A stretch of DNA of 64,000 nt from Xanthomarina arctica (lineage in GTDB: Bacteria > Bacteroidota > Bacteroidia > Flavobacteriales > Flavobacteriaceae), in NCBI RefSeq assembly GCF_014638915.1, contig NZ_BMFQ01000003.1, forward strand, positions 124,001 to 188,000, given 5' to 3'. A model generated the notes under the pieces. It had not been told where the DNA came from and did not search any database. It saw only the letters and a list, made by a program, of their open reading frames with translations. Below, in pieces: positions 4,828 through 37,804 of this stretch. The translations under genes were made by a program, and so were the position numbers. Within the stretch, counting starts at the first letter, position 1. Each line of letters opens with the position of its first letter.

Positions 4828-4828
4828 T

Positions 4829-18111: not shown

Positions 18112-21100
18112 CTACTCAATTAAAATAAATGGTGCCCAATAGAATGGTTCTGGAAATTCATCCTTAAGTTTTAATTTCGCTAAACGAAAGGCTTCATACT
18201 TTGGAATACCTTTCTCAATCCAATTGGTATAAAATGATGTCATTAACTTTTGAGTAGTGTCATCATTAACACTCCAGAAACTCATGATAACACTTTTAGC
18301 TCCTGCAAGCATAAACGAACGTTGTAATCCATAAATACCTTCACCTGTGACACTATCCCCTTTTCCTGTTTCACAGGCACTTAAAACTACAAGTTCAGTA
18401 TCCTTTAAATTTAAACTTTTGGCTTCTTGCGCAGTTAAAATACCATTATTAGATAACTCAATAATATTACCATAAATAGTATTCTGAGCTCCTGCAAACA
18501 ATAATCCTGATTTTAACAAGCTATTATCTTGAACATAATTAGATGATATCCCAAAAAGTTTATTATTAGTTGATTTTAAGCTTTCATCATTAATAAAGTA
18601 GCCGTGTGTAGCTAGATGCAAAATCCTAGGAGATGCAATTTCTTTTATATTATCCTCTGTAGCAGTCTTTAAATGATAAAGTTTTGTCTCCCAATTATCA
18701 GCTTCTAAAATGGTTGATATAGTTTGTATTTCTCTTTCTGTACCTGGCAAATAGGATATTGTTCTAGAAGAATTATAGGATCTCAAAAGTATAGAAATAG
18801 ATGTATCTAAAACTACATCATCTGAATTAGGAATATTAAAATTCTCTAACTCATAATCTGGGTTTCCTACTAATATCGCTGTTAAATTTTCAGTGTTCTT
18901 ATTTATTTCATTTCTATGAAAGAGACTTCTAGCACTTAGTATAGGTTTAATATAGAGGTAATCTATTACGTATTGGTTTTTTTCAGTATTAAAAAACGCC
19001 TCTGTATTAATCGAATTATAAGCGCCATCAGCAACTAAATAAAGGGTTTCAATACCTTCCAATTCCTTTTCAATAGGCTTAAAGAATAAGTTATAACTAG
19101 ATATATCTTTTTTATATTTTAGTTCTCCAACACTATAATTTTGATATGTTTTTAAATAATCCTTTTCCAAGGCACTTGTACTGTCTATAATCACAAATTT
19201 CGGAGTACCATGCTTCTTCACAATAAATGCACCATAATAAATGGAATCCGTAAATTTATTAAGAATATTAAGCTTATCCTTTGTAGCACTTCTAGATTGT
19301 TTATTAATCCTTATAATTTCTACATAAGCTTCCTTATCCTTAAGCTCTTTAGTTAACTTTTCTAAAGAAGGCGTTTCAAGCTTGCTATTCTCACTTGAAA
19401 GAGACTTTTCTAACTCACGATTATTATATTGAAGTTCTTCAATTTCAGCTGAAAATTCTTCACCTTCTTCAAAATATGTGTTTAATAAAGCCGTATTTTC
19501 TTTTAGTTGTTGATAATTTGAGATGGCTTTTTGGTTTTGAATTTCAGATTGTTTGCTGTTATATAATAGTAAAGATTTAAAATAAAATCTTAGATTAAGG
19601 TACTCCTCCAAAAAAGTTGGCTCAGAATTAAGTAACAGATGTGTGTTGAGAAATTCAAACTCATCCGTAAAATCGATATATAATATCTCTCTTTCAGTAT
19701 CACTTAATAAATGAAAGTAAGCATCATTTTTAGAAACAATCTGGTTTATGCCATTTAACAGAAGAATTCTAGCTTGATCATCTTTCCCTGTATTAAATTT
19801 AAGTAGGTATATTATTTTTAAAACCTTAGCTATATCCCCATTAACCTGATAAAAAGCCTCCAATTGTTCGATTGTTTTTTCAACATTATTATCAATAAAA
19901 TAGTTACATAAAATAAGATTCATTTTCTTTCCTTTAGATAATTCCTCTCCATAAATCAAAGAGCTTTTTTCATAAGCAATTTTAGCATTTATAAAGTCAT
20001 CTTGATAAAAATAATAATGACCTAAAGCATCAAAATAATCCCCTTCAGCTAAAGACATAAGATTATTCTGGCTCTCCAAAAATAGACGTGTCTCTTCAAG
20101 ATAACTCCAGCTATTAGCATAGTCAGCTTGTAACAATGCATTATTTGCTAATCCTAATAGACAGGAATAATATAAAAAAGAATTGGTGACCTGTTCTTGC
20201 TTACTATAAATCTCATAGGCTTTTGTATAATAGCGCTCGGCATCAATAAAGTTATTTTTTGAATTAGCTTCCTGTCCTAAAAGTCCCCATATTTGAGCTG
20301 CTATTTCAGTCTCATCCAAATGATGTTCGTATATTAATTGTAATGCTTCGGTACCAATTGCAGTAGATCTATTGTCTTTTCCAAGAACATTTAAACTTAA
20401 TGGTAATATTAAATACGGAAGAATCTGTGGGTTTTCACTCCCAAATAATGATCTGGAAAGTTCAACAGTTTTATAGGCAGTTTCTTGAGCATTTGGTAAT
20501 CCAAGCATAGTCTCAACAATAGCTTTAAATTTATAAAACATTAGTTTAAATTCATCTTCAGCCCGATCAATGTTTCTATTACTTAGTTGTAAAGTTTTTA
20601 AAAAATCTTGTGTAAACAAAGAATACTCAGCCAACATCAAGTCAAGAAAAATAATATTGTCTTCAGTTAATTGATTTCTATGTGATTCTAATATACTGAT
20701 TTGGCCTTCTATAGTTTTTTGGTCATATAAAATACTACGTTCAAAAAGAGTGATTGAAAGCGCATAAATTAAAAGTAAATCATCGTAATTTTGTTCAACT
20801 ATTAACCTTTCTTCATAGATGCTAAATTGTGTCTCAAAAGCATTATAATCTCCCGTTTTAATAAGCATATCCAATTCGTCATAGTAATCAACCTCCTCAA
20901 TATTAGGAAAATGTTCTTCTTTTAATCGTTTATATTTAACTTCATTAATATTATCACCTATTTCGTGATAAGAGCTAATTAAAAGTGTATACATTAATTC
21001 TTGCTCAGATATTTTTTTTAGTTGATACTTCTGGTTGGTTTCTAATGCCTCCTCACCAAACTTAATTACATTAATATAATTTTCATTCTCATAATAATAC

Positions 21101-21795
21101 ATTGTCAATTCAACTTTAATTTTAAGAAGTAGTGAGCTATCGTTTATTTGTTTCTCCTTGTAATTATTTAAAAAAGTTAATAATACATCTTCTTCCTTGG
21201 CAATTTGACCTGAATATCCATAAGCCTTGGCAAATTTAAAATCAAAAACTTTAAATGCTTGTGATTTATTTAATTCTATATAAGTTAGAGCATATTGTTT
21301 TGATAAGTCCAAATTATCATTTATATAATGTAGATAAGCTAAATAATATACACTCATATTAAAATTAGGATTAATATCAAGATTAAACTCCCTATTTAAG
21401 GAATAACAGGTTTCTAAATGTTTAATAGCTAGTGTATCATTCTGATTGTAAAAATAATTTAAGCCAATAAAATAATGTAATTTCATTAACTTGATTGGGT
21501 TGTTTGAAACTTCTTTATTTCTTAGATCTAAAGATTCTTGAAAATAATCTAGGGAGGATTCGTTTTTAAAATAATACACCAAACCTTTTCTGTATAGGAA
21601 GTCTGCATAAATAGTATCTTTCTTGAAATTTACACTAGCTAAATCTTTTTCAGCAAGATTTAAGAATTCAGTTGCTTTTAGATAATTGCTTTTTCTAATA
21701 TTAGAAAGTATGGAATCAGAATATGTTACCCAATCTTGACTAAAAGATATTGAACAATAAAATAATAATATCAATAAATAATATTTTGATTTCAT
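18112..21795 (-). CDS. Exported TPR-CHAT (caspase-like) protease, copy 4
   Basis: 1227 residues, the largest of four. Signal peptide about 1-19 (MKSKYYLLILLFYCSISFS). A long helical TPR-type region (30-770) and a coiled-coil linker (about 780-850) precede the CHAT domain. The catalytic dyad is His in ILHLATHGYF (about 1062) and Cys in VVLSACETGKGD (about 1140). CHAT domains belong to the caspase/separase clan and cleave protein substrates once their TPR part is triggered. Its CHAT domain is clearly diverged from the other three, which are nearly alike. It starts 12 bp after the preceding CHAT gene, so it is the last gene of the sigma operon. The signal peptide implies action in the periplasm or outside. 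Confidence 0.9.
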   Translation of the reverse strand: MKSKYYLLILLFYCSISFSQDWVTYSDSILSNIRKSNYLKATEFLNLAEKDLASVNFKKDTIYADFLYRKGLVYYFKNESSLDYFQESLDLRNKEVSNNPIKLMKLHYFIGLNYFYNQNDTLAIKHLETCYSLNREFNLDINPNFNMSVYYLAYLHYINDNLDLSKQYALTYIELNKSQAFKVFDFKFAKAYGYSGQIAKEEDVLLTFLNNYKEKQINDSSLLLKIKVELTMYYYENENYINVIKFGEEALETNQKYQLKKISEQELMYTLLISSYHEIGDNINEVKYKRLKEEHFPNIEEVDYYDELDMLIKTGDYNAFETQFSIYEERLIVEQNYDDLLLIYALSITLFERSILYDQKTIEGQISILESHRNQLTEDNIIFLDLMLAEYSLFTQDFLKTLQLSNRNIDRAEDEFKLMFYKFKAIVETMLGLPNAQETAYKTVELSRSLFGSENPQILPYLILPLSLNVLGKDNRSTAIGTEALQLIYEHHLDETEIAAQIWGLLGQEANSKNNFIDAERYYTKAYEIYSKQEQVTNSFLYYSCLLGLANNALLQADYANSWSYLEETRLFLESQNNLMSLAEGDYFDALGHYYFYQDDFINAKIAYEKSSLIYGEELSKGKKMNLILCNYFIDNNVEKTIEQLEAFYQVNGDIAKVLKIIYLLKFNTGKDDQARILLLNGINQIVSKNDAYFHLLSDTEREILYIDFTDEFEFLNTHLLLNSEPTFLEEYLNLRFYFKSLLLYNSKQSEIQNQKAISNYQQLKENTALLNTYFEEGEEFSAEIEELQYNNRELEKSLSSENSKLETPSLEKLTKELKDKEAYVEIIRINKQSRSATKDKLNILNKFTDSIYYGAFIVKKHGTPKFVIIDSTSALEKDYLKTYQNYSVGELKYKKDISSYNLFFKPIEKELEGIETLYLVADGAYNSINTEAFFNTEKNQYVIDYLYIKPILSARSLFHRNEINKNTENLTAILVGNPDYELENFNIPNSDDVVLDTSISILLRSYNSSRTISYLPGTEREIQTISTILEADNWETKLYHLKTATEDNIKEIASPRILHLATHGYFINDESLKSTNNKLFGISSNYVQDNSLLKSGLLFAGAQNTIYGNIIELSNNGILTAQEAKSLNLKDTELVVLSACETGKGDSVTGEGIYGLQRSFMLAGAKSVIMSFWSVNDDTTQKLMTSFYTNWIEKGIPKYEAFRLAKLKLKDEFPEPFYWAPFILIE

Positions 21796-21807
21796 TTTAA
21801 TTTTTTT

Positions 21808-24801
21808 TTACTCCAACAAAACAAATCCAGCCCAATAATACGGAGAATATTTCAATTTCATTTCTGCTTGAGCCATTCGTAAAGCTTCATGAATACTTTC
21901 TCCTTGAAAACAATATCCGTAAAATAATTCAAATAATTCGGCTGTTTGTTCATCAGGCACCTTCCACAAGCTCATAATTATATTTTTCACGCCTGCTATT
22001 TTAAAAGCACGTTGCAACCCAAAAACACCTTCACTACCATTAATATCTCCTAACCCAGTTTCACAGGCACTCAATACAACCAATTGGCAGGCACTCAAAT
22101 CCAAGTTAGAGATTTCTTTTGCTGTTAATATACCATCGTCAATTACTGAACTTTTAATAGGTTTTCCCCAATAAGTATTAACGCCAGCAAATATTAGCCC
22201 AGAACGTAACATAGGATCTTCAGAAGCTTTATAATAAGAAGCTTTTGTAATATTTAGATTGTTGTCTTCAAGTATTTTAGGGTTTTCGAAAAAATAGCCA
22301 TGAGTCGCCAAATGCAATACATAAGGAGTTGTTTTTCCATCTAATTGTAGGATACTTGATTTAGTTGCTTGAGTACCATTAATAATTCGAGTTGCATAGC
22401 CATTAGCGTCACTCTGTTTTTTTATAATGCTAACTTCTTTCTCAGTTCCGGCCAAATAGCCCCATGTATTAATACCACTTCTGCTTACTAATTCCATAAA
22501 ATCATCTTCTACTTCAGAATTAACAATGTTGTTCTCCTCTGTGGAAATAGCACTTTGCTTATCATAGTCTATATCACCGTATAAAAGGAATTCTAAATCC
22601 TGTTGTTGTTTAAATACAGTTGAATCATAATTTATCAAGCTAGATGAAGAGCCTAATAGATGTACTTTAAATGCTTCACCCAATGTTTTGTTTCCAGAAA
22701 ATGGCAATGCAGCAAAATCTATTTGATGTCCCAACCCTGAAGGAACAATATAAATGGTAGTAATTTCTTCTAACTCTTTAGATAATGGTTTTAAAAACAA
22801 ATCACTAATAGCTTCATCAGTATATTGTTTGTCAATATGTAAGCTCTCTTTTTGAGAATTATTTCTTGTCAATAAAAATATCAACTCTTTCTCTTCAAAA
22901 AGTGAAATAAATTTAGGTGCTATATAATTTTTACCAATTGCAAAAGCTGAGTAAACAAGACTGTCTGGGATTTTATTCGTATCATAATAAGTAAAGTCTA
23001 CAAGATTAATGATTAATTCATTTGATTTTAGGTTACTGCTAAATTCATCCCATCTAATGGAAAAAGTGTTTTTTGATTTAGAAAATTCATTCGATTGTTG
23101 AACTAAATATTTCTCTATATTTTCAGTATCTTGAATTAGATCATCATAAAACAGTGGTCTATTAGCTTTTGGAATTTCATTCAGAATTGAAATTTGTTTT
23201 TTATAGTCTATAAATCTTTCATATTCTGACTTTAATAGAATGTTATCACTATTTTTTATTGAATTTTTAACTCTATTTTGATTATGTAAGAGTAAGTTCT
23301 TCATCATTAATTCTTCTTCAAAAGAACTTATTCTAATTAAATCAAATTCATTAGGATTTCGATAAATAAAAGACAAAGGATATATTCTTTCATGCAGATA
23401 CTTCTCAAGATATTCCTTTATTTCATAGTTAGTTTGATAACTAATAATCTCATTAATTTTATTTAAAAACAAATCTGAAACCATCATTAAATATTCATAT
23501 TCTTTTTGTGAATTCTTAAGACAATTATAAGTAATTGCAAGCCCTAAAAGTTTCAATCTAAATGACTCTCCTACTCCGTTATTTAAACTTTCAATTGATT
23601 TCAATCCATAGGCTTCAGCTTCATTGCACCTATCCAAATTTTGATATAGCGCCCCCAAATTGAAATATAAAATAGATTTATCCGCTAATGGATCTAATGT
23701 TTCTTTAACTTCTAATGACTTTTTTAAGTAAAATTCTGCATCATTATTTTTATTTATAGTAAGATAAAAAACCCCTAAGTTTGCAGAGACTAAAGCATAA
23801 TAATTGTTTAATTCCCCAAAATTTTCTTTAATAATATTAATTGCTTTTAAAAAGTTTAATTCAGCCAATTCATATTTTTTTAATTCTTGATAAATTGTAG
23901 CCAAAGAATTATACGAAATTGCAACTTCTAAAGAGCTCTCTCCAAAATACTCAATATAAGAATCCAATAATTGAATATTTGTTTTTTCTGCCTCAATTAA
24001 TTCACCTTGTCTAACATATAAATTAACTAACTGCATCTTCGCATTTAGATAATCAATACTATTTTCTCCGTATACAGATTTATATATATTAATTTTTTTT
24101 ATACAAAATTCTTCAGCAAGATTATACTTATCATTAGACAAATAAAAGAGGGAAACATTTTCAATAGCCACTAAATATTCATCACTTTGATTTCCTTTAT
24201 ATTTTAAAGACTCACTAACCCATGAAAGGGCTTGTTCTTCTATAGTTTCGAAATCCTTTGTTAATAAATATAAATTATGCAATGCATTTAAAGAATCAAA
24301 ATATTCCTTCGAATAAATAGTATTTAATTTTATGGCTTTGTAGTATTGTTTTTCAGCATTTTCAAAATTTACTAATTCAACAAATGAATCACCAATAAAT
24401 TTGTGTCTTAATATTTTCTCGTTTTCAAACATGTAATCCTTACCTAATTCAAGTGATTTTGAAAAATAAGTGATTGCATTTTTAAAATCATTCAATTGGA
24501 AATAGGAAGCCCCAATTAAGGTATAGTTAATTTCCGTCTGCTCTTGATTAATTAAATTCTCACCTATTTCGATAGCTTTCAGGAGAAATTTAATTGAGTT
24601 TTCATAGTCATTTTCCTGAAATAATTGATTTCCTTTTTCAATTAAGCTTTGATAGTCACCAGATTTAGAAACAAATTTTAGAACTTTATCATAATCTCTA
24701 TTCTGAAAATATATTTCTGTAGAGTCAATATTACTTTGCGCCGTAATCTTTACTCCAAAAAGAGTGCAAAAAAAAACAAATGATATAAAAGTATTTTTCA
24801 T
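21808..24801 (-). CDS. Exported TPR-CHAT protease, copy 3
   Basis: 997 residues from the ATG at 24801, chosen because MKNTFISFVFFCTLFGVKITAQ is a good signal peptide and the longer frame from 24840 would overlap the previous gene. About ten TPR-like repeats follow (30-470), then a linker and the CHAT domain with His in LHLATHGYF (about 832) and Cys in LVVLSACETGLGD (about 912). The last ~300 residues are almost the same as in the next two CHAT proteins, while the TPR part is different. It lies 11 bp after copy 2 in the same operon. Confidence 0.9.
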   Translation of the reverse strand: MKNTFISFVFFCTLFGVKITAQSNIDSTEIYFQNRDYDKVLKFVSKSGDYQSLIEKGNQLFQENDYENSIKFLLKAIEIGENLINQEQTEINYTLIGASYFQLNDFKNAITYFSKSLELGKDYMFENEKILRHKFIGDSFVELVNFENAEKQYYKAIKLNTIYSKEYFDSLNALHNLYLLTKDFETIEEQALSWVSESLKYKGNQSDEYLVAIENVSLFYLSNDKYNLAEEFCIKKINIYKSVYGENSIDYLNAKMQLVNLYVRQGELIEAEKTNIQLLDSYIEYFGESSLEVAISYNSLATIYQELKKYELAELNFLKAINIIKENFGELNNYYALVSANLGVFYLTINKNNDAEFYLKKSLEVKETLDPLADKSILYFNLGALYQNLDRCNEAEAYGLKSIESLNNGVGESFRLKLLGLAITYNCLKNSQKEYEYLMMVSDLFLNKINEIISYQTNYEIKEYLEKYLHERIYPLSFIYRNPNEFDLIRISSFEEELMMKNLLLHNQNRVKNSIKNSDNILLKSEYERFIDYKKQISILNEIPKANRPLFYDDLIQDTENIEKYLVQQSNEFSKSKNTFSIRWDEFSSNLKSNELIINLVDFTYYDTNKIPDSLVYSAFAIGKNYIAPKFISLFEEKELIFLLTRNNSQKESLHIDKQYTDEAISDLFLKPLSKELEEITTIYIVPSGLGHQIDFAALPFSGNKTLGEAFKVHLLGSSSSLINYDSTVFKQQQDLEFLLYGDIDYDKQSAISTEENNIVNSEVEDDFMELVSRSGINTWGYLAGTEKEVSIIKKQSDANGYATRIINGTQATKSSILQLDGKTTPYVLHLATHGYFFENPKILEDNNLNITKASYYKASEDPMLRSGLIFAGVNTYWGKPIKSSVIDDGILTAKEISNLDLSACQLVVLSACETGLGDINGSEGVFGLQRAFKIAGVKNIIMSLWKVPDEQTAELFELFYGYCFQGESIHEALRMAQAEMKLKYSPYYWAGFVLLE

Positions 24802-24812
24802 TATAAAAAATT

Positions 24813-27602
24813 TTATTCCAACAATACAAACCCAGCCCAATAATACGGAGAATATTTCAATTTCATTTCTGCTTGAGCCATTCGCAAAGCTTCATGAATA
24901 CTTTCTCCTTGAAAACAATATCCGTAAAATAATTCAAATAATTCGGCTGTTTGTTCATCAGGCACCTTCCACAAGCTCATAATAATATTTTTCACTCCTG
25001 CCATTTTAAAAGCACGTTGCAACCCAAAAACACCTTCACTACCATTAATATCTCCTAACCCCGTTTCACAAGCACTTAATACAACCAATTGGCAGCTACT
25101 CAAATCCAAGTTAGAGATCTCTTTTGCTGTTAACACCCCATCATCAATTACAGAACTTTCAATAGGTTCTCCCCAATAAGTATTAACGCCAGCAAATATT
25201 AGCCCAGAACGTAGCATAGGGTCTTCAGAAGCTTTATAATAGGAAGATTTTGTTGTTTCCAGATTGTTGTCTTCAAGTATTTTAGGGTTTTCGAAAAAGT
25301 AGCCATGAGTCGCCAAATGCAATACATAAGGAGTTGTTTTTCCATCTAATTGTAGGATACTTGATTTAGTTGCTTGAGTACCATTTATAATTCGAGTTGC
25401 ATAGCCATTAGCGTCACTCTGTTTTTTTATAATGCTAACTTCTTTCTCAGTTCCGGCCAAATACCCCCAAGTATTAATACCACTTCTGCTTACTAATTCC
25501 ATAAAATCATCCGCTACTTCAGAATTAACAATATCGTTCTCCTCTGCGGAAATAGCACTTTGTTTGTCATAGTCAATATCACCGTATAAAAGAAGTTCTA
25601 AATCCTTTTGCAGTTTAAATACAGTTGATTCATAATTTATCAAGCTAGATGAAGAGCCTAATAGATGTACTTTAAATGCTTCCCCCAATGTTTTGTTTCC
25701 AGAAAATGGCAATGCTGCAAAATCTATTTGATGTCCCAACCCTGAAGGAACAATATAAATGGTAGTAATTCTTTCTAACTCTTTAGATAAAGGAGCTATA
25801 AATAGATCACTTATAGCTTGTCCTGTATATAGCTTATTTATGGAAGCTTCATGCACATTTGTTTGATTCAATAGTGAATCTAACTGTTGTTGCTCAAAAA
25901 GAGGAATATACTTCGGTGAATTATAATTTTTTCCTATGATAAAGGCACTATACTTAATACTATCAGTCCATTTTTTATCATAATAATTAAAGGCTACTAA
26001 GTCTATAATTAATTCATTTGATTTAAGCTTCTCTTGCACCTGATTAAAGTTAATTGAAAGAACATTTTCTGATGTTTCAAATTCAGAAGAGTTCCTACTC
26101 AAATATTTTTCTAACTTTTCAGTGTCTATATCAAGTTGTTCATATACTTGAGACCTGTCAGAAAGTGGAAGTTTCTCCCATTGTGCCAATTGCTTTTTTT
26201 GTTTAATAAATTGAGAATAGCTATTAATAAGAACGGTGTCTTTTGTTTTCAAAATATTATTCTTAATGCGCTGTTGATTGCGTAAGGATAAATTTTTAAT
26301 TAGTATTTCGTTTTGATAACTAGAAAGTTTTAAGCTATCCGACAAAGGATAGTCTCTCATAAATGATAATGTGGAGTAATGCGGGTTTAAGTTTATTTTC
26401 TTAAAAAGCGCGAGTTCGTCTTGAGATAAAAAAGTAAGAACTTCTAAATAATTTTCATGATCCACTAGAGCACTATTTTGTAAATAAAAGGAAGCCTTTT
26501 CATATTGTTTCATTTCAATATATAAAAGTGCAAGGTTATTAACAGTACTTTTATAATATTTACCATCTAACTGATTATTATCTTCTAAAATTGTCAGTGT
26601 TTTAAGGTACGTAATCTCGGCTTTTTCAATCTGGTTCGTTTCAATATAAAGTAAACCTAAATTACCAAGGGTTATAGCATAGTTTAAACTACTCGCACCA
26701 TAAATGTTTTTTTTTACTTTGAGTGCAGCTAATAAAATGGGTAGAGCTTCCTCATAATGTTTCTCTTCAAAATATAATTGACCTAAATTATTAAGTGCAG
26801 TTGTGTAGATCTCTGAAAAATCACCCACTTCTTCACATTTTTTAATAACATGAACATAGCACTTTTCGGCTTCAACCTTATTTCCTAAATTATCCAAACA
26901 CATAGCATAATTATTTAATAATAACAGGTAGTTTGGGTGTTCGGTTGGTATTAAAGGAAAAGCCTCAACAAAAGAATCGTATGCCTTTTGATACTGCCCG
27001 ATATTTAAATAAAAACTACCTAAATTATTTAATGCTAACCCATATTCGTAACCATTATCATTAGATAATAATTTATGGATCCCAATAATTTCTAAATAAG
27101 ATTTCTCTGCCTGGCCAAGCTCTCCTATATCAAAATAAATTTCTGCTAAATTTCCAAGTATGGCAGTATAACCTAAATTATTTTTTCCATATTCTTCTTC
27201 CTGAATGGTTAATGCTTCTAAAAATAATTTTTCTGCTTTTTCAAATTCCCCTTTTTTGTAATACAACAAAGCTAAATTACTAGTTGGCTGTATAACAACA
27301 ACCCGATGTATTTGTGTGAAATCTTGAGCTTTTTGTAGAGTAAATTCTAGCTGTTTTTCTGCCTTATTAAGTTGTTCGAGTTCTAAATAACCAAGACCAT
27401 TAAACGCTAAATAACCTAAATAATAAAGTGAATCCATTTGAGTATTTAACTCATGGCTTGCAATCAGTTTATCACTCAAATCAATTACTTTTTGATATTG
27501 CCCTTTGAAATAGTATAGATTAAGGCTCTCAATACCGTTCTGGCAAAAAACAGGTGTTTGCCAAATAAATAAAAAAATGAGAAGTAGTTTCCTTATAGTC
27601 AT
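24813..27602 (-). CDS. Exported TPR-CHAT protease, copy 2
   Basis: 929 residues from the ATG at 27602; MTIRKLLLIFLFIWQTPVFC is a clear signal peptide, whereas the longer frame from 27671 adds an unlikely N-terminus overlapping the upstream gene. Eight or nine TPRs with the NNLGxLY pattern (about 80-400), a linker, then CHAT with His near 764 (LHLATHGYF) and Cys near 845 (VVLSACETGLGD). Its linker and CHAT domain are very close to copy 1 (RNQQRIKNNILKTKDT and LSDR-QLDIDTEKLEKYLSR occur in both). The gap to copy 1 is 52 bp. Confidence 0.9.
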   Translation of the reverse strand: MTIRKLLLIFLFIWQTPVFCQNGIESLNLYYFKGQYQKVIDLSDKLIASHELNTQMDSLYYLGYLAFNGLGYLELEQLNKAEKQLEFTLQKAQDFTQIHRVVVIQPTSNLALLYYKKGEFEKAEKLFLEALTIQEEEYGKNNLGYTAILGNLAEIYFDIGELGQAEKSYLEIIGIHKLLSNDNGYEYGLALNNLGSFYLNIGQYQKAYDSFVEAFPLIPTEHPNYLLLLNNYAMCLDNLGNKVEAEKCYVHVIKKCEEVGDFSEIYTTALNNLGQLYFEEKHYEEALPILLAALKVKKNIYGASSLNYAITLGNLGLLYIETNQIEKAEITYLKTLTILEDNNQLDGKYYKSTVNNLALLYIEMKQYEKASFYLQNSALVDHENYLEVLTFLSQDELALFKKINLNPHYSTLSFMRDYPLSDSLKLSSYQNEILIKNLSLRNQQRIKNNILKTKDTVLINSYSQFIKQKKQLAQWEKLPLSDRSQVYEQLDIDTEKLEKYLSRNSSEFETSENVLSINFNQVQEKLKSNELIIDLVAFNYYDKKWTDSIKYSAFIIGKNYNSPKYIPLFEQQQLDSLLNQTNVHEASINKLYTGQAISDLFIAPLSKELERITTIYIVPSGLGHQIDFAALPFSGNKTLGEAFKVHLLGSSSSLINYESTVFKLQKDLELLLYGDIDYDKQSAISAEENDIVNSEVADDFMELVSRSGINTWGYLAGTEKEVSIIKKQSDANGYATRIINGTQATKSSILQLDGKTTPYVLHLATHGYFFENPKILEDNNLETTKSSYYKASEDPMLRSGLIFAGVNTYWGEPIESSVIDDGVLTAKEISNLDLSSCQLVVLSACETGLGDINGSEGVFGLQRAFKMAGVKNIIMSLWKVPDEQTAELFELFYGYCFQGESIHEALRMAQAEMKLKYSPYYWAGFVLLE

Positions 27603-27654
27603 ATAATAAATGGTAATTAGCGTTTCAAGAATTGAGAAAAAGTAATAACATTCC

Positions 27655-30600
27655 CTACTCCAACAAAACAAATCCAGCCCAATAATACGGAGAATACTTT
27701 TTCTTCATATCCCCTTGAGCCATTCGTAAGGATTCATGAACACTTTCTCCTTGAAAGCAATATCCGTAAAATAATTCAAATAATTCGGCTGTTTGAGCAT
27801 CAGGAACTTTCCACAAACTCATAATAATATTTTTCACACCTGCCATTTTAAAAGCACGTTGTAACCCAAAAACGCCTTCACTACCATTAATATCCCCCAA
27901 ACCTGTTTCACAAGCACTTAATACAACCAATTGGCAGGAACTCAAATCCAAATTAGAGATTTCTTTTGCTGTTAATATCCCATCATCAATTACAGAACTT
28001 TTAATAGGCTCTCCCCAATAAGTATTAACACCAGAAAACACTAAACCAGATCGTAACATTGAGTCTTCCGAAGCCTTATAATAGGAAGGCTTTGTCTTCT
28101 CAAGATTGTTATCTTCAAGTATTGTAGGGTTTTCAAAAAAGTAGCCATGAGTTGCCAAATGCAATACAAAAGGCGTTGTTTTCCCATCTAATTGTAAAAT
28201 ACTTGATTTAGTTGCTTGTGTACCATTTATAATTCGAGCTGCATAACCATTGGCGTTACTCTGCTTTTTTATTGTCGTAACTTCTTTTGCCGTTCCTGGT
28301 AAATAGCTCCATGTATTAATACCACTTCTACTTACTAATTCCATAAAATCATCCTCTACTTCAGTAATAACAATATCGTTTCCAACTGAGGAAATAGCAC
28401 TTTGTTTATCATAGTCAATATCACCGTATAAAAGGAGTTCTAGATTCTGTTGTTGTTTAAATACAATTGAATCATAATTTATCAAGCTAGATGAAGAGCC
28501 TAATAAATGTACTTTAAATACTTCACCCAATGTTTTATTTTCCGAAAATGGCAATGCAGCAAAATCTATTTGATGCCCTAACCCTGAAGGAACAATAAAA
28601 ATAGTAGTAATTCCTTCTAACTCTTTAGATAAAGAAGCTATAAATAGATCACTTATAGCTAGCCCTGTATATAGTTTATTTATAGAGGCTTCAGGGGCAC
28701 CAGTTTGATTCAATAATGAATCTAACTGGTGTTGCTCAAAAAGAGGAATATACTTCGGGGATATATAATTTTTCCCTATTATAAAGGCACTATACATAAT
28801 ACTATCAGTCCATTTTGTATCATAATAATTATAGGCTACTAAATCTATGATTATTTCATTTGATTTAAGCTTCTCTTGTACCTGACTAAAGTTTATTGAA
28901 AGAGCATTTTCTGATGTTGCAAAATCAGAAGAGTTTCTACTCAAATATTTTTCTAATTTTTCTGTATCTATATCAAGTTGTTCATATGCTTGAGGCCTAT
29001 CAGAAAGTGGAAGTTTATCCCATTGTGTTAATTGCTTTTTCTGATTTATAAATTGAGTATAGCTATTAACAAGAATGGTGTCTTTTGTTTTTAAAATATT
29101 ATTCTTAATGCGTTGCTGATTACGCAAGGATAAGCTTTTTACTAAAGTTTCAATTTCATAACTATTAGTAGTAATACCTCCGCTCAAATTAGTTTTTTTT
29201 TGAATATATGATAGTGGAAAAAATCTAAAAGCTTCAAAAGATTTATAATAATTTGTTTGTTCTTTCACGGATAAAAAATTTATTGAACGTAAGAACCTTT
29301 GTCTTAAAGGAATTGATATTTGCAGTATTAATTCTTCTACCATAAAATCATCATTCATTTCGTCATATAAAATAATGCTATTATAAAGGGAGTGTAGATA
29401 CCTATCATTATAAACTCCATATGAGTTTTGAATAAGTTTTAACGCTTTCAAAGCATAAAATTTAGATTTATCATAATTGTTAATATTTAGATAGAAAACA
29501 GCTAAATTGTTATACGTAGAGATAAATTCGGGGTGGTTCTCATTTAGCACCTTTGTTTTAATCTCCAATGAAGATAAATACAATTCTTCAGCTTTAATAG
29601 AGTCGCCTTTTAACTCTTGACATGAAGCTAATTGATGAATAGCGTCAGCATAATTTAAATTTTCTGTTCCAAGATTATCAATTATAATATCTACATTATT
29701 TTTTGCAAAAAATTCCGCTTCAATATATTTTCCTTGTTTTAAATATAAAACAGCGAGATTATTTAAAACAAGGGCGCAGTCTATGTGATTATTCCCTAAA
29801 ATTTTAATTTTAATTGCAAGAGACTGCATTAAATAATCTTGTGCTTTTGTATAATTTTTTATTTGAATATAAAACATCCCTAAATTATTAAGTGAAGTCG
29901 AATAATCTAGATTTTCGGTTCCAAGAATATTTTTTCTAATATTTAATGACTTAATATAATATTCTTCTGCATTCATAAAATCACCTTTATCTTTATAATG
30001 TAGCCCTACATTACTAAGTGAAATTGCATATCGTAAATCTTGATCTCCAAATATTTGTCTTCTTGTATTTAATCCTTCCAGATGAAATACTTCTGCTTTA
30101 TCAAATTCTCCAATTTCATCATATAAAACAGCCAAATTATTTAAAGACATTAAATAATCTATATTGTTTTCACCCAATAATTCTTTCCTTTTTTTAGTTA
30201 ATTCCTGCAATATGCGTTCTGCTTTTTTATAATCTCCTTTTAATCGGTATAACTCAGCCAAATTATTCTCCGAATTCATAAAATCTGGATGATTCTCTCC
30301 TAGAATTATTTTTCTAATATTATAAGATTTTAAATAATAAATCTCAGATAATTCATACTTTCCAGTAATCTTATATAAATAACCCAGGTTATTTAAGGTA
30401 GTTAAATATTCTGGGTTTTCTTTATCATCGTGAAGTTCATAAAAAGATAAATTGTTTTTGAAAATTATTTCAGCTTCAGAAAATTTATATTGGTCAATAT
30501 AATTACTTGCAAGATTTCCATAAGCAATTCTATACTTAGAATGGTTTTCACCAAGAATATCTTTAAAAATTTCGATGGATTGTTTATGATATTCTTCTGC

Positions 30601-31056
30601 TAATTTAAAATCTCCTAAGTTGTTATATACCTTACCTAGGTTCGTTTGAATTGTAGCATAATCTAAATTATTTGGCTTGGATACAGACAGAGCTTCAATA
30701 AATATTTTTTCTGCTTTATTATAATTTCCCAAAGAACTATAACAATTAGCTAAATTATTTAGTAAGGTGAGATAGTCTTCTTGGTTTTCAGTATAAAATG
30801 CTTTTTGAATTTCTATTGATTTAAGGTGCAAATCAATAGCTTTTTCATAATTTCCTTCTCTTTGATAAATAATCCCCAAACTTTTTAAAGAAGTTGCGTA
30901 TTCATAACTATTGTTTCCAAATTTTATTTTTATGGTATCAGCAAAAAGCAGAGCTTTATTAAAATCCTTTTTATCATGATAATAAAAAATACTGTCATTA
31001 AATTTTTGCCCAAATAATGGAGAAGTAATAAAAAACATAAAAACTATTATTTTCAT
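27655..31056 (-). CDS. Exported TPR-CHAT protease, copy 1
   Basis: 1133 residues from the ATG at 31056, which overlaps the M48 gene stop as ATGA and gives a good signal peptide (MKIIVFMFFITSPLFG). It carries about twelve kinesin-light-chain-type TPRs of ~42 residues (30-560) with repeated NNLAxLY and ILGENH text, the most regular TPR array of the four. The CHAT domain has His near 968 and Cys near 1049 in LHLATHGYF and VVLSACETGLGD. KLC-type TPRs usually bind peptides or proteins, so this part could be the sensor. Translational coupling to the M48 peptidase suggests joint action. Confidence 0.9.
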   Translation of the reverse strand: MKIIVFMFFITSPLFGQKFNDSIFYYHDKKDFNKALLFADTIKIKFGNNSYEYATSLKSLGIIYQREGNYEKAIDLHLKSIEIQKAFYTENQEDYLTLLNNLANCYSSLGNYNKAEKIFIEALSVSKPNNLDYATIQTNLGKVYNNLGDFKLAEEYHKQSIEIFKDILGENHSKYRIAYGNLASNYIDQYKFSEAEIIFKNNLSFYELHDDKENPEYLTTLNNLGYLYKITGKYELSEIYYLKSYNIRKIILGENHPDFMNSENNLAELYRLKGDYKKAERILQELTKKRKELLGENNIDYLMSLNNLAVLYDEIGEFDKAEVFHLEGLNTRRQIFGDQDLRYAISLSNVGLHYKDKGDFMNAEEYYIKSLNIRKNILGTENLDYSTSLNNLGMFYIQIKNYTKAQDYLMQSLAIKIKILGNNHIDCALVLNNLAVLYLKQGKYIEAEFFAKNNVDIIIDNLGTENLNYADAIHQLASCQELKGDSIKAEELYLSSLEIKTKVLNENHPEFISTYNNLAVFYLNINNYDKSKFYALKALKLIQNSYGVYNDRYLHSLYNSIILYDEMNDDFMVEELILQISIPLRQRFLRSINFLSVKEQTNYYKSFEAFRFFPLSYIQKKTNLSGGITTNSYEIETLVKSLSLRNQQRIKNNILKTKDTILVNSYTQFINQKKQLTQWDKLPLSDRPQAYEQLDIDTEKLEKYLSRNSSDFATSENALSINFSQVQEKLKSNEIIIDLVAYNYYDTKWTDSIMYSAFIIGKNYISPKYIPLFEQHQLDSLLNQTGAPEASINKLYTGLAISDLFIASLSKELEGITTIFIVPSGLGHQIDFAALPFSENKTLGEVFKVHLLGSSSSLINYDSIVFKQQQNLELLLYGDIDYDKQSAISSVGNDIVITEVEDDFMELVSRSGINTWSYLPGTAKEVTTIKKQSNANGYAARIINGTQATKSSILQLDGKTTPFVLHLATHGYFFENPTILEDNNLEKTKPSYYKASEDSMLRSGLVFSGVNTYWGEPIKSSVIDDGILTAKEISNLDLSSCQLVVLSACETGLGDINGSEGVFGLQRAFKMAGVKNIIMSLWKVPDAQTAELFELFYGYCFQGESVHESLRMAQGDMKKKYSPYYWAGFVLLE

Positions 31057-32195
31057 AGCTTTAAATTTTTCCATATTTCCAAAGCCTTTTCTTCCATCTC
31101 CAGATTATAATAAGCAATCGCCAAAATCCGTTGAGCAGCTCTACTATTTTGTTGTTCTTTTGGAAGTTCATTTATTTTCCCTATCGCAGCCATGGAATTA
31201 CCCAAAAGTTCAAAAACACAGGCAAGGTTAATATAGCTTTGAGTATAAGTATCATCCAGGCTAATAGCTTTTTCAAAATCCTTTTGAGCTCGTTTCAATA
31301 AATCTTCCATTAATTGATAACTAGCCTCATCTAAACTGCGTTCTTGCGATGGTTGTTTCAAACGACTATTAGTATCGATCCCTAAAGGATATGAAAAACG
31401 TTCTGGATTTTTATAGGCTTCTCTACTTAATGGTTTATACTTTAAAGCTTTTAATGTTCTGCTCACCCCAAGATTATTATAATTCTCTCTGGATGGAAAA
31501 TAGCTATTTAGAGTTTCAAAATTTGAAATAGCTTGATCATAATCTCCTTTATTATTGGCTGCAATACCTTCTAAAAAAAGCATATAGAGTTCATTAATTT
31601 TTTGCTGGGCCTGTAAATTTATAGCCTTACGCTCTTTTTTAGTTGGATACCCATTGTCACTGTCTACTAATTCATAATAATTATAGATAGCATCCAACAA
31701 CTCAGGATATACATCAAATGGTTTATATCCAGCCATACAAGAATAAAACAATCCCTTGTGATCTGCCTCTGTCTCAATAGCCAGCTTTTCATTTTTAGAA
31801 AGAGCCTTCAATTTATTGCTAAACTCGTTATCCTTTTTTCTAACAGCAAAAGCAAAATCTGTACAAAAGGTATGATCATTATAGTAATGTGCCAATTCAT
31901 GAGCAATAATAATGGATAGTGCGCTATCACTATCTGCTCCAAAACGATTACAAATTATTAATAAATTTTTATCGACACTAATTGTTGGGACAGGTGTGGC
32001 AAAGTATATGGCAGGTGTTCTTCGCTCTTTTGTGGAAGTAATTTTAAGGTTAGGTGCTGTTTTAGAATTTCCATATGCCGCTACTAATTTATTAAACACC
32101 ACAGTTATTTGCTCCTTTTCATTCAAACCTGTTTGAGCAAATGATATATTAAAAACTAAAAATGATAATATAAAATACAATAACGATTTAGTCAT
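31053..32195 (-). CDS. Exported M48-type metallopeptidase with C-terminal TPR-like helices
   Basis: 380 residues from the ATG at 32195. The signal peptide is MTKSLLYFILSFLVFNISFA, and this start overlaps the stop of the upstream gene by 8 bp. The zinc motif is HELAHYYNDH (near residue 100), with a downstream ETEADHKG (about 143-150) supplying the third ligand, as in M48 (HtpX/Ste24/Oma1/BepA-like) peptidases. The second half has TPR-like helices (IAANNKGDYDQAISNFETL and DFEKAISLDDTYTQSYINLA), the BepA-type arrangement. It sits between the membrane protein and the CHAT array; its target could be the CHAT proteins or the membrane protein. Confidence 0.9.
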   Translation of the reverse strand: MTKSLLYFILSFLVFNISFAQTGLNEKEQITVVFNKLVAAYGNSKTAPNLKITSTKERRTPAIYFATPVPTISVDKNLLIICNRFGADSDSALSIIIAHELAHYYNDHTFCTDFAFAVRKKDNEFSNKLKALSKNEKLAIETEADHKGLFYSCMAGYKPFDVYPELLDAIYNYYELVDSDNGYPTKKERKAINLQAQQKINELYMLFLEGIAANNKGDYDQAISNFETLNSYFPSRENYNNLGVSRTLKALKYKPLSREAYKNPERFSYPLGIDTNSRLKQPSQERSLDEASYQLMEDLLKRAQKDFEKAISLDDTYTQSYINLACVFELLGNSMAAIGKINELPKEQQNSRAAQRILAIAYYNLEMEEKALEIWKNLKL

Positions 32196-33339
32196 TTTCA
32201 AAAATAATTTTTTCCAATTGTTCAACTATGGTATCATCATTTTCAACAACCAATTTCACTGGAGAATTAGTATTTATAACATGATAAAATGAATCATCAA
32301 TCTTCAAGTAAAAACCTGCATCATTGAAATGAATAAAATGAAATTTCTGATTTGTATTTTCTAAATTGAGAGTCAATTGATTTTCATCAAAAACATAGGT
32401 GTTTTCTAACAACTTTAAGCTATCTAATTCATTTTTATAAAACGAATCATTTTCATAAGTATCTTCATTTAATATGTCTTTTATAGAAACAATCCTTTTA
32501 GTATAATCATTAAAAATCAGTTCAACTTGCTGATCTTTCTCATTTGAAATGTAGCCCATTCCTTGATTTTCAATAATAGAAACAGTTTGAGTTGTAGTTT
32601 CAACATTAGCTAAAACATGATCAATATTATCGGTACGATCAAAAGATTTGAAATAAAATATACCAGCCATAATTAACACACTAGCAGCAACAGCATATTT
32701 AATCCACGATAATGAAATTACGCGTGAATTTCGAGAATTCTCTTCGGTGTCAAGCTCTAATGTTTTGGAACTACCCAACATTTTTTTCTGATATATCTTG
32801 GACTCTAATTCATGCATGGGCTCTTCTACCTTAACTTCTTTAAGTTCTGCATCCCAAGCACTAAACTGCTCCTTTAAATCAGTCCGAGCCTTTTTTTTTA
32901 AAGCAGTTTCAAGTGTAGATTCTGCAATCACAAAAGCTGCTCGTTGACCCATTTCATCTAAATCTTGAATGATACGTTGACGCTCAGTTTTGGTAATTAC
33001 AGCTTTTAACTGCTGCAATGCAATTATTTTATTATCTAAAATAGAATCCTCTTTACCTAATAACCCAATAATTGATTTATTATTTTTCCCTAAAACAAAA
33101 TCTTCTGCAAGATCAGTCATAAAAGCATCATATAAATTGTCTAATTGACTTATTACATGCTCAGGATTTTTTAACTTCATACGGTATAGTTCCTGATATA
33201 AAGGTTTAGGATCCGATATATACATTAAAAAGCCTTTATATATGGCTTCCCATTCTATTGACTTATCAGAAATTAATAATCCTTGCTCCTGGAAAACTGG
33301 CTCTAATCTATTTTTTATATGTAATATTATTGATGTCAT
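32188..33339 (-). CDS. Single-pass membrane protein, possible anti-sigma factor
   Basis: 383 residues. No N-terminal signal peptide; one membrane segment near residues 211-229 (WIKYAVAASVLIMAGIFYF). The N-terminal ~210 residues are charged and helical and presumably cytoplasmic; the C-terminal ~150 would be periplasmic. That is the layout of an anti-sigma factor, but I see no FecR or zinc anti-sigma motif. The gene begins 1 bp after the sigma-factor stop, the usual place of an anti-sigma partner, and is followed by two kinds of exported peptidase that could cleave its periplasmic part. The anti-sigma role is inferred from topology and order. Confidence 0.65.
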   Translation of the reverse strand: MTSIILHIKNRLEPVFQEQGLLISDKSIEWEAIYKGFLMYISDPKPLYQELYRMKLKNPEHVISQLDNLYDAFMTDLAEDFVLGKNNKSIIGLLGKEDSILDNKIIALQQLKAVITKTERQRIIQDLDEMGQRAAFVIAESTLETALKKKARTDLKEQFSAWDAELKEVKVEEPMHELESKIYQKKMLGSSKTLELDTEENSRNSRVISLSWIKYAVAASVLIMAGIFYFKSFDRTDNIDHVLANVETTTQTVSIIENQGMGYISNEKDQQVELIFNDYTKRIVSIKDILNEDTYENDSFYKNELDSLKLLENTYVFDENQLTLNLENTNQKFHFIHFNDAGFYLKIDDSFYHVINTNSPVKLVVENDDTIVEQLEKIIFEND

Positions 33340-33340
33340 G

Positions 33341-33952
33341 CTATGTATTCATTTCATTAAAAGCAAGTTTCTCTAAACGCTTTTGGCATTTTGCTTTTTG
33401 ATTTTTTGTATTAGAAGGATTAGTATATCCAAAGTGATCTGTTAATTCTGCCATGGACTTCCTATGATACCAAAATAAAGTGAGTAATTCATAACATTTC
33501 CCTCCACTATTTTTTAATTTCTGTAATGCAGCCTCTAATGCTGTAAACTGTGCTTCTTTGTCATTACCCAAATCTTCCAAATCATCTTGAATCTGTGGGT
33601 CGTATTGTTCATTTATTGAATCAACATCAAAGCTTTCATAGGCTTCAAAATTCAATTGTTTCCCTACAGCTTTAAACTTATTTAATACTTGGTATCGGCA
33701 CACGGAATTTAAATATGTTTGTAAAGAACATGTTAAAATAAAATCCCCTTTTACAATTTTTTCATATAAAATCAGCATCACATCCTGATAAATATCTCCT
33801 AATTCTTCTTCTTTGATTTTACTTCCAACAATCAATCTTCTCATAAATAATATACAGTACTCTTTATGTGTTTTATAAATATAACCTAGGTAATCTTGGT
33901 CTTCTTTCACTAACTCAACGAGTTCCTGGTCTGATAACGTTGTAATATTCAT
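33341..33952 (-). CDS. ECF-type RNA polymerase sigma factor
   Basis: 203 residues. Region 2 is visible in LSDQELVELVKEDQDYLGYIY...EELGDIYQDVMLILYEKI (about 6-68) and LQTYLNSVCRYQVLNKFKA (about 76-94). Region 4 is in the C-terminal third (LQKLKNSGGKCYELLTLFWYH, then MAELTDHFGYTNPSNTKNQKAKCQKRL, a helix-turn-helix). An acidic stretch of ~40 residues links the two. First gene of a seven-gene minus-strand operon of ~15.8 kb. Its own upstream region lacks the GGTTACC-N15-TATTAA motif found before seven nearby transcription units, so it may direct those promoters without direct autoregulation. Confidence 0.85.
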   Translation of the reverse strand: MNITTLSDQELVELVKEDQDYLGYIYKTHKEYCILFMRRLIVGSKIKEEELGDIYQDVMLILYEKIVKGDFILTCSLQTYLNSVCRYQVLNKFKAVGKQLNFEAYESFDVDSINEQYDPQIQDDLEDLGNDKEAQFTALEAALQKLKNSGGKCYELLTLFWYHRKSMAELTDHFGYTNPSNTKNQKAKCQKRLEKLAFNEMNT

Positions 33953-35608: not shown

Positions 35609-36469
35609 TTAAAGCTGTTCTAAAAGCTGTGAGCTCATTTGACGCGCTGAACTATTTAAAATAAAGTGATAATCTGTAGCACCAGACTCTTTTAACCACT
35701 TTTCCCAGATATAAGTAATCTTTTTAGTCTGTAAGATGTCCAAAGAGTTTTTACTTTCAATACCTGATACAATCCAATTTACATGACTGCTTAAAGTTAT
35801 TGGAATTAGACCATAATCTTTTTCATTAGCTATGGATGCCCAATCAATCCCTTTTAGTTTCTTTATAAATTGTGTTGATGTGAATCTGTTTTCAGCCTTT
35901 AAAACATGATCTTTTTTCTCAAAATCAAAATACCCATCTGTTATAATTAGTGCTACATTATTATAACCAATTTTTTCAAAGCTATTACCTATATTTAACA
36001 AATAACTCCAGATATCGACACCAAAATAGTCTCGATTTGTTTCACCATATTTACTCGCTTTCAATAACTCCTTTAAAGTGCTTGGTAAAGTCGATGCAAA
36101 ATTACTTATGACCGTATTTTTATCTTTTACAGCAACTTCATCTAAATATATTTGCAACTTATTTTCATAATAATTTACATTTAAAGGACTCCCATTTTGT
36201 GGTATGATTTTTACTGAGAAGCGATCTTTTGAAGTTAATATTAACCCACGTCGTGCTTGTGTTTCAAAGACTTTAAACATTTCCTCAATTAATAGCATAT
36301 CCTTTTCCAATTGATGATCTTGCATTACCCGATCACTTAAATCAAGAATTATAGTATAATTAAGGGGTGTTCTTTTCCCTTGCTCAATAGCATGAACAAT
36401 AGAGTTACTTAATAAAAATATTATTAAAAATATTTTTGTAACCGCGAAATTTGAGTGTGTAGTTTTCAT
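35609..36469 (-). CDS. Exported vWA-like protein
   Basis: 286 residues. A hydrophobic N-terminal export signal (about 8-28, KIFLIIFLLSNSIVHA) is followed by YTIILDLSDRVMQDHQLEKDM, where DLSDR stands in the place of a vWA MIDAS DxSxS motif but is not canonical. NVALIITDGYFDFE (about 167-180) fits the last MIDAS Asp. The fold is likely vWA, with altered metal binding. It follows the four-TM protein gene by 28 bp and probably forms a periplasmic partner of it. Confidence 0.65.
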   Translation of the reverse strand: MKTTHSNFAVTKIFLIIFLLSNSIVHAIEQGKRTPLNYTIILDLSDRVMQDHQLEKDMLLIEEMFKVFETQARRGLILTSKDRFSVKIIPQNGSPLNVNYYENKLQIYLDEVAVKDKNTVISNFASTLPSTLKELLKASKYGETNRDYFGVDIWSYLLNIGNSFEKIGYNNVALIITDGYFDFEKKDHVLKAENRFTSTQFIKKLKGIDWASIANEKDYGLIPITLSSHVNWIVSGIESKNSLDILQTKKITYIWEKWLKESGATDYHFILNSSARQMSSQLLEQL

Positions 36470-37760: not shown

Positions 37761-37775
37761 AAGGTTTGTTTTATT

Positions 37776-37804
37776 CTTAATAACCAAAACATCAAATGGT
37801 AACC
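37776..37804 (-). promoter_or_regulatory. Candidate ECF promoter (GGTTACC-N15-TATTAAG) for the membrane/vWA operon
   Basis: GGTTACC at 37798-37804 and TATTAAG at 37776-37782 on the minus strand, spacer 15 bp. A start point a few bases downstream would leave a leader of only ~10 nt before the ATG at 37760. Confidence 0.75.

Follow-up and report, generated by a model that had tools for sequence, protein, structure and literature searches.

We analysed a stretch of 64,000 nt of the Xanthomarina arctica genome (assembly GCF_014638915.1, contig NZ_BMFQ01000003.1, positions 124,001 to 188,000; hereafter the window) and focused on seven genes that lie on the minus strand in one tight cluster at positions 18112-33952. 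The first encodes a sigma factor of the extracytoplasmic function (ECF) type (203 aa, 33341..33952) and is followed by genes for an anti-sigma-like protein with a single transmembrane (TM) helix (383 aa, 32188..33339), a putatively exported M48-like metallopeptidase with C-terminal tetratricopeptide repeats (TPRs) (380 aa, 31053..32195) and four putatively exported TPR-CHAT proteases, denoted CHAT_a (1133 aa, 27655..31056), CHAT_b (929 aa, 24813..27602), CHAT_c (997 aa, 21808..24801) and CHAT_d (1227 aa, 18112..21795). The coordinates rest on the likelier ATG starts; the TTG starts in the list of open reading frames (ORFs) for the M48, CHAT_b and CHAT_c genes are upstream extensions. With the revised starts, the sigma and TM-protein genes are 1 bp apart, the TM-protein and M48 genes have an 8 bp stop/start overlap, the M48 and CHAT_a genes overlap by 4 bp, and gaps of 52, 11 and 12 bp separate CHAT_a from CHAT_b, CHAT_b from CHAT_c and CHAT_c from CHAT_d, respectively. 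These coordinates confirm the seven-gene operon with small gaps and overlaps proposed in a preliminary description of this DNA. Many Bacteroidota keep a sigma factor, a membrane-bound lock and exported caspase- or separase-like proteases together, and this suggests that they turn genes on by cutting the lock outside the inner membrane.

The sigma factor of the window scored below the cut-off both for the Pfam sigma region 2 (14.1 bits, cut-off 24) and for TIGR02937 (38.3 bits, E 1e-9, cut-off 42.9). All 36 members of its family matched TIGR02937 at E 0.001 or better, and the profile of these 36 sigmas, the window's included, matched solved ECF sigma factors, the best being SigW (5wuq, E 1.1e-11). 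Judged by these profile matches, the window protein is a member of the ECF sigma factors. When profiles of the sigma and of the TM protein were built from the close subfamily, neither had a relevant match among the sequences of the Protein Data Bank (PDB); it was the wider 36-member sigma profile that did. No relatives of the sigma factor were confirmed on viral contigs.

All four CHAT proteins of the window exceed the Pfam cut-off for the CHAT domain (PF12770), scoring 186.7-194.3 bits in one scan; the values obtained for the single proteins, partly in another scan, are 183.5 bits for CHAT_a, which has many TPRs, 194.3 for CHAT_b, 192 for CHAT_c and 189.3 for CHAT_d. The motifs ATHGYF and SACETG, which hold the His/Cys dyad, are present in all four as had been reported. 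Among the 59 CHAT proteins that we found linked to sigmas of this family in various genomes (see below), the catalytic Cys is kept in 59 and the His in 57; in the remaining two (L072, L102) the His position is not covered by the alignment. The N-termini of the M48-like peptidase and the four CHAT proteins look by eye like Sec signal peptides. A 19-residue hydropathy scan flags none of them and a looser 11-residue scan flags all four CHATs, and we consider the export proposed earlier likely. Three layouts occur among the CHAT proteins: a signal peptide only, as in the window; a signal peptide and a C-terminal TM helix (39 of the 59 linked CHATs); and three N-terminal TM helices (5 loci). A C-terminal TM helix followed by 2-7 Lys or Arg residues is found in 45/59. 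From hydropathy and charges, all three layouts are predicted to place the CHAT domain beyond the inner membrane, where the C-terminal part of the anti-sigma would also lie.

CHAT_a, CHAT_b and CHAT_c are 87-94% identical over their last 340 residues and 25-32% identical in the part before the last 500. Such a pattern would be expected if receptors differed in their sensors and had an output domain in common, perhaps through gene conversion. The earlier proposal of variable TPR sensors on a constant protease thus holds for these three and not for CHAT_d, which shares 38-40% identity with them in the protease part. CHAT_d also stands apart from CHAT_a-c in a tree of all 118 CHAT rows, in which the window type and the widespread type are separate too. 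Stand-alone proteins of 295-310 aa that match CHAT_d over about 295 residues, with no match to the CHAT domain, were seen in two related loci (L016:14282-15169 and L018:12973-13905).

The M48-like peptidase carries the motifs HELAH and ETEAD and scored 18.2 bits against PF01435, below the cut-off of 20.3. An alignment of seven such peptidases, with that of the window among them, shows no variation in HExxH or ETxAD, and every sequence in it reaches E 0.05 or better against PF01435. By these motifs and matches it is a member of peptidase family M48. It is not a constant part of these loci: it has no place between the TM protein and the CHAT in five loci with a membrane-anchored CHAT, nor in a locus with a caspase. 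No M48 relatives were found in phage records.

In a low-confidence model, the 383-aa protein has a helical N-terminal part up to about residue 190, a TM helix at about 211-231 and then an alpha/beta part that is predicted to be periplasmic; the model is helical and fair only at about residues 1-110. A FecR match was absent at E 0.1, and a pair of the FecI/FecR type was rejected. A known anti-sigma domain was not found by Pfam scan or Foldseek. Sister sigmas of the family are accompanied by short anti-sigma-like TM/TPR proteins, and hhalign aligned the family of the 383-aa protein to 33 of these with a probability of 97.4% (E 1.4e-11); the aligned part comprises the TM, the helix that precedes it and, for some members, the TPRs. 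The anti-sigma role rests on this homology, on place and on topology, because the model is poor beyond about residues 1-110 and has no solved relative. Homology to the short partners of sister sigmas thus supports the 383-aa protein as a candidate anti-sigma, and a fold match does not; this is how far the earlier assignment of the TM protein as the partner that holds the sigma can be upheld.

To describe the close form of the locus, we scanned genome contigs with the sigma and obtained 11 loci. They come from isolates of Flavobacteriaceae, including Bizionia argentinensis JUB59, Galbibacter orientalis DSM 19592, Flavobacterium taihuense NAS39 and Gelidibacter gilvus IC158, and from metagenome-assembled genomes titled Flavobacterium, Flavobacteriia, Flavobacteriaceae or Bacteroidetes. 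The gene directly after the sigma is a relative of the TM protein in 11/11. Further downstream there is a CHAT domain in seven loci, a C14 caspase in one and the contig end in three; in two of the latter (L012, L017) a relative of a CHAT protein ends at the contig end before the domain, and the third (L019) ends inside the M48. The caspase (L022:11801-15268) is an exported protein of 1155 aa with a C14 domain (126.8 bits) and TPRs, which stands at the place of the CHAT behind the same sigma and TM protein, and an M48-like gene (27% identity) lies next to it on the other strand. We also scanned 14 TM proteins against the profile of the short anti-sigma-like family, with E-values from a small database. 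TPR-type anti-sigmas (36-84 bits) go with a CHAT of three TM helices and no M48 in 5/5 loci, and anti-sigmas of the other type (14-26 bits) go with M48 (8) or the caspase (1) in 9/9. Within the close subfamily, the type of the periplasmic domain of the anti-sigma and the type of protease change together.

A broader form of the locus is widespread. At 1e-12 the sigma profile has a match in 108 of 397 genomes of the family Flavobacteriaceae. We examined 60 regions around high-ranking sigma matches, which are mostly the best of the matches listed and not a random draw; two (L090, L106) had no called sigma ORF and were dropped. A CHAT gene lies within three genes of the sigma in 48 of the remaining 58, and in 43 of these 48 the arrangement is convergent: the sigma is followed by a protein mostly of about 240 aa, in which a TM near residue 85 precedes TPRs, and the CHAT comes next on the other strand. 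In a set of 60 genomes, that of X. arctica included, 27 of the 44 CHAT genes have a sigma match no more than 8 kb away, where 0.48 would be expected, and 25 of the 36 sigma matches have a CHAT at up to the same distance; a chance neighbourhood was rejected on the former count. The number of linked CHATs rises to 33/44 if one includes the three distal CHATs of the window operon, together with three CHATs whose weaker sigmas were detected locally. In the X. arctica genome six of six CHAT genes are near a sigma of this family: four belong to the window operon, a fifth is next to a sigma of 190 aa and a TM/TPR protein of 239 aa, and the sixth lies 6 kb away from a weaker, third sigma. A divergent layout occurs as well. 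In a third locus of this genome (L112, C1:308000-322000) the sigma and an anti-sigma-like gene are divergent from exported genes; also present are a CHAT with a C-terminal TM, an aspartyl-protease-like protein of 152 aa, its motif recognised by eye, and a response-regulator-like gene, likewise assigned by eye; the same layout is found in L125 and L129, and without the response-regulator-like gene in L128.

Outside Flavobacteriaceae we considered 40 regions around top-scoring CHATs. Within the class Bacteroidia, 11 of 20 regions (from 13 genomes) have sigma and anti-sigma matches and one more has the anti-sigma only. A separate locus (L173, NZ_AP025312.1) is on a 15.4 kb plasmid of Aureibacter tunicatorum, with a sigma, a 239-aa anti-sigma-like protein and a CHAT in a row; two further plasmid matches of the sigma have no annotated CHAT nearby. 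The order of sigma and then TM protein is therefore conserved beyond the X. arctica genome, as the preliminary description had asked, and the broader form reaches other families of Bacteroidia.

It might still be argued that these genes share no function and are old neighbours that have stayed linked because they were inherited, or transferred in islands, jointly. Several loci of the window type (class 2/3) are indeed near defence or mobility genes, where unrelated genes travel together. The linkage, however, holds in convergent, co-directional and divergent layouts, a caspase can take the place of the CHAT, and the linked CHATs are not one clade: a single clade for all 81 was rejected (p 3.5e-52) with a quick tree, in a test run after the first tree had been viewed. 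This indicates that several kinds of clan CD protease became partners of one sigma/anti-sigma family, or that there were several losses of this link; a single gain followed by losses may also be compatible with the clade test. We regard a neighbourhood with no shared function as highly improbable.

Two described systems come close to the window operon. According to PMC10028731, the TPR-CHAT protease Csx29 of type III-E CRISPR cleaves Csx30, an inhibitor of an ECF sigma factor. The CASP module of that system (Csx29-Csx30-CASP-sigma/RpoE; PMC10028731 and PMC9729208) has, like the window, a TPR-CHAT protease, an ECF sigma and a sigma inhibitor, here a candidate. The model of CHAT_b (residues 2-929, predicted local distance difference test (pLDDT) 77) resembles Csx29 over 598 residues (Z 24.8, root-mean-square deviation (rmsd) 9.9) and yeast separase over 691 residues (Z 21.8, rmsd 16.1). 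Proteins with TPRs only match its TPR part with Z up to 26.7, and Csx29 is the best-scoring match that spans both the TPR and the CHAT parts. In contrast to type III-E, the window proteases have putative signal peptides, those of the relatives have predicted signal peptides or TM helices, the candidate inhibitor has a TM, and there is an M48 and several copies of the CHAT. The X. arctica genome has no match to RAMPs (PF03787), for which 4 of 14 control genomes were positive; no direct repeats of at least 22 bases within 150 bases were found in the window, and no Cas7-11 was found among the 20 of its 39 ORFs that were scanned with PADLOC. An identity as type III-E CRISPR was rejected because the genome has no RAMP match and the window no CRISPR-like repeats.

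The other system is the DdvS/DdvA pair of Myxococcus xanthus, which has a role in CRISPR control. There, the ECF sigma DdvS is active once the anti-sigma DdvA is inactivated, by a signal that PMC4374960 gives as unknown. The best PDB match of our CHAT-domain profile was 8rot (E 3e-6, residues 833-974), with CRISPR TPR-CHAT chains following from 0.015. The title of this entry is transmembrane anti-sigma factor DdvA, its protein name is CHAT domain-containing protein, and the alignment shows ATHG and ACEG; we equated 8rot and 8rw5 with the M. xanthus DdvA by name. DdvA is also the top Foldseek match by E-value (4.6e-14), with a TM-score of only 0.25-0.26. The DdvS/DdvA pair and the window operon both tie an ECF sigma and a TM anti-sigma (a candidate in the window) to a CHAT domain. 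In DdvA the CHAT is within the anti-sigma chain, whereas here it is separate, exported, present in several copies and replaceable by a caspase; CHAT and anti-sigma-like genes are separate in the window and in the 48 linked regions. Since a CHAT is fused to the anti-sigma in one group (DdvA) and forms a cleavage pair with the inhibitor in another (Csx29/Csx30), a CHAT/anti-sigma partnership is likely here, by analogy.

The earlier statement that there was no described system with such a set was therefore too strong. For the split, exported, multi-copy form itself we found no description in the portion of the open-licence literature covered, on CHAT with sigma or anti-sigma, TPR, Bacteroidetes and periplasm, and the operon is not described in the parts covered of PMC10028731, PMC9729208, PMC11854122, PMC10907252, PMC9862357 and PMC4374960. 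In PMC11854122, two CHAT proteins of a type VI secretion system region of Bacteroides fragilis, one apparently transmembrane, are proposed as immunity proteins.

The best explanation of the locus, to which we give a probability of about one half, is a split, envelope-facing switch of CHAT proteases and an anti-sigma. Its observed basis is the gene order and its conservation, the family identities, a dyad that is intact and a TM protein homologous to anti-sigma-like partners; the topology, sigma binding, signal, cleavage and order of steps are our proposal. The cytoplasmic part of the single-TM protein would hold the ECF sigma, and the TPR-CHAT proteases would sit in the periplasm, where their divergent TPR arms would bind an envelope signal. 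Binding would unlock the separase-like protease domain, which would cut the anti-sigma in its periplasmic part, either itself or by way of the M48 peptidase; the release of the sigma would be completed by general proteases, such as the one M50 peptidase encoded elsewhere in the genome. The proposed sequence of a cut outside and then inside the membrane resembles proteolysis of the RseA/DegS/RseP type (PMC10028731), with the difference that the site-1 candidate is a clan CD cysteine protease (CHAT or caspase) and not DegS. If true, this would define a new kind of site-1 protease for transmembrane signalling, and a widespread class of exported CHATs tied to a sigma/anti-sigma pair would give the Csx29-sigma pathway and the CHAT-bearing DdvA a common setting. 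The switch is directly testable: the catalytic Cys is conserved, a neighbouring gene encodes one candidate substrate, and the locus occurs in named isolates. Of the preliminary description, the operon, the export as likely and the dyad are upheld, and so is conservation beyond this genome, the absence of which it had named as a refutation; the lack of a described counterpart is not.

In the main rival explanation the proteases are an output of the system: the sigma would be freed in some other way and would then drive exported CHAT and M48 proteins that act on the envelope or on invading proteins (stress clean-up, defence or cell death). The window proteases are downstream in the same gene cluster, an M48 and four CHATs exceed what one site-1 cut needs, and the locus is within a defence island, all of which fit this explanation. 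In 43 of the 48 linked regions, however, sigma and anti-sigma share one strand and the CHAT lies on the other, so that it is not simply in the operon of the sigma; Csx29 and DdvA tie the CHAT to the anti-sigma itself; and the periplasmic domain co-varies with the protease type. We consider proteases as output somewhat unlikely. It is quite unlikely, in our judgement, that the CHAT cuts nothing, or only itself, and serves as a partner that is docked to the anti-sigma by TPR contacts; the CHAT part of DdvA might work in this way. The shared chain in DdvA would agree with docking, as would the TPRs carried by both anti-sigma and protease in the widespread subtype, but the retention of the dyad in the linked CHATs and the substitution by a caspase point to a protease activity that is needed.

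Several observations weigh against a switch of CHAT proteases and an anti-sigma. As the fusion in DdvA illustrates, a CHAT does not have to work as a separate site-1 protease. For the 383-aa protein the AlphaFold model has a pLDDT of 55, with blocks of 63-85 within the first 110 residues, and Foldseek returned nothing for it at E 0.001 or better; against the short anti-sigma-like profile the window protein had the lowest score of the 14 TM proteins (13.6 bits). Linkage is also incomplete. In ten of the 58 regions there is no CHAT within three genes of the sigma: one of them is cut by a contig end, in another the CHAT is four genes off, and neither applies to the remaining eight. In four of these eight (L079:6480-8609, L107:5842-7968, L074:6546-9272 and L109:6744-7958) the same sigma family is followed by large, fused one-TM proteins of 404-908 aa with no CHAT partner; these have an anti-sigma-like N-terminus by eye, and two have a weak TonB_C match. 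Among the 44 CHATs of the 60 genomes, those left after the linked ones are two at contig ends and nine for which no sigma was found nearby, and in other classes of the phylum none of 20 CHAT regions has a clear sigma/anti-sigma pair, with one weak case (18 and 17 bits). Upstream of the sigma in the 11 loci there was no convincing promoter motif, the best gapped word pair occurring in 5/11 (four of these five closely related) compared to 3-4 in shuffles; a sigma-70 scan of the window likewise gave no signal above shuffles, so that neither search supports autoregulation. Finally, a juxtamembrane stretch that is conserved in the short anti-sigma-like proteins, with an Arg in 27/33, was not seen in the 383-aa protein of the window.

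This Arg and the Asp of a W-x-x-x-D motif behind the catalytic Cys of the linked CHATs (56/59 by pattern, the other three by eye) lead to a guess: the CHATs might cut the short anti-sigmas after the Arg in the manner of separase, with a putative correspondence of residues. The CRISPR TPR-CHAT is reported to differ from separase at that pocket (PMC9729208). Because of this difference and because the window protein does not have the stretch, we keep Arg cutting as a guess only.

The window is a defence island, with Dnd/Pbe-like (DndD/DndH-like) genes at 2827-6424 and ZacABC at 7108-13505 on one side of the operon, and an Upx-like gene at 39374-43114 and a Gabija GajA/GajB pair at 43354-47188 past it. 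Near the class 2/3 relatives we noted a type I restriction system and a relaxase (L021), McrBC (L054), an AlbA/Schlafen protein with a relaxase (L013), an AlbA/Schlafen protein alone (L014), a DUF1016 nuclease inside the operon (L016) and a serine recombinase (L022); these were picked by eye from the flanking proteins as likely defence or mobility genes, so that their number is not a rate. The setting makes a defence role of the window type worth testing and is not evidence of it. The best-studied CHAT proteases are cytoplasmic defence enzymes. One could speculate that the window-type loci are an envelope-watching defence alarm, in which exported receptors of the TPR-CHAT or caspase kind, whose TPR arms have diversified while the protease domain was homogenised, would sense phage or other attack outside the cell, cut the membrane anti-sigma and trigger a response. 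The Csx29-Csx30-sigma pathway of type III-E would then be a cytoplasmic, RNA-guided offshoot of an older CHAT/anti-sigma logic. As a whole we hold this extension to be doubtful, and unlikely in its present form.

Two genes upstream of the sigma on the minus strand are possible companions. One encodes a 286-aa protein with a signal-peptide-like start (35609..36469), a close homologue of which is found upstream of the sigma in 5 of the 11 close loci (L012, L013, L020, L021, L022); the other encodes a 429-aa TM/coiled-coil protein (36498..37787) with a homologue beside the 286-aa protein in the same five. In two loci (L015, L017) the upstream DNA is too short to tell. Matches to the 286-aa protein occur in 30 of 395 genomes of Flavobacteriaceae, and the close form only in the X. 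arctica genome and in one other (G286), where the homologue is 55% identical and lies 2.4 kb from the sigma; in the other 28 genomes the identity is about 24-30%.

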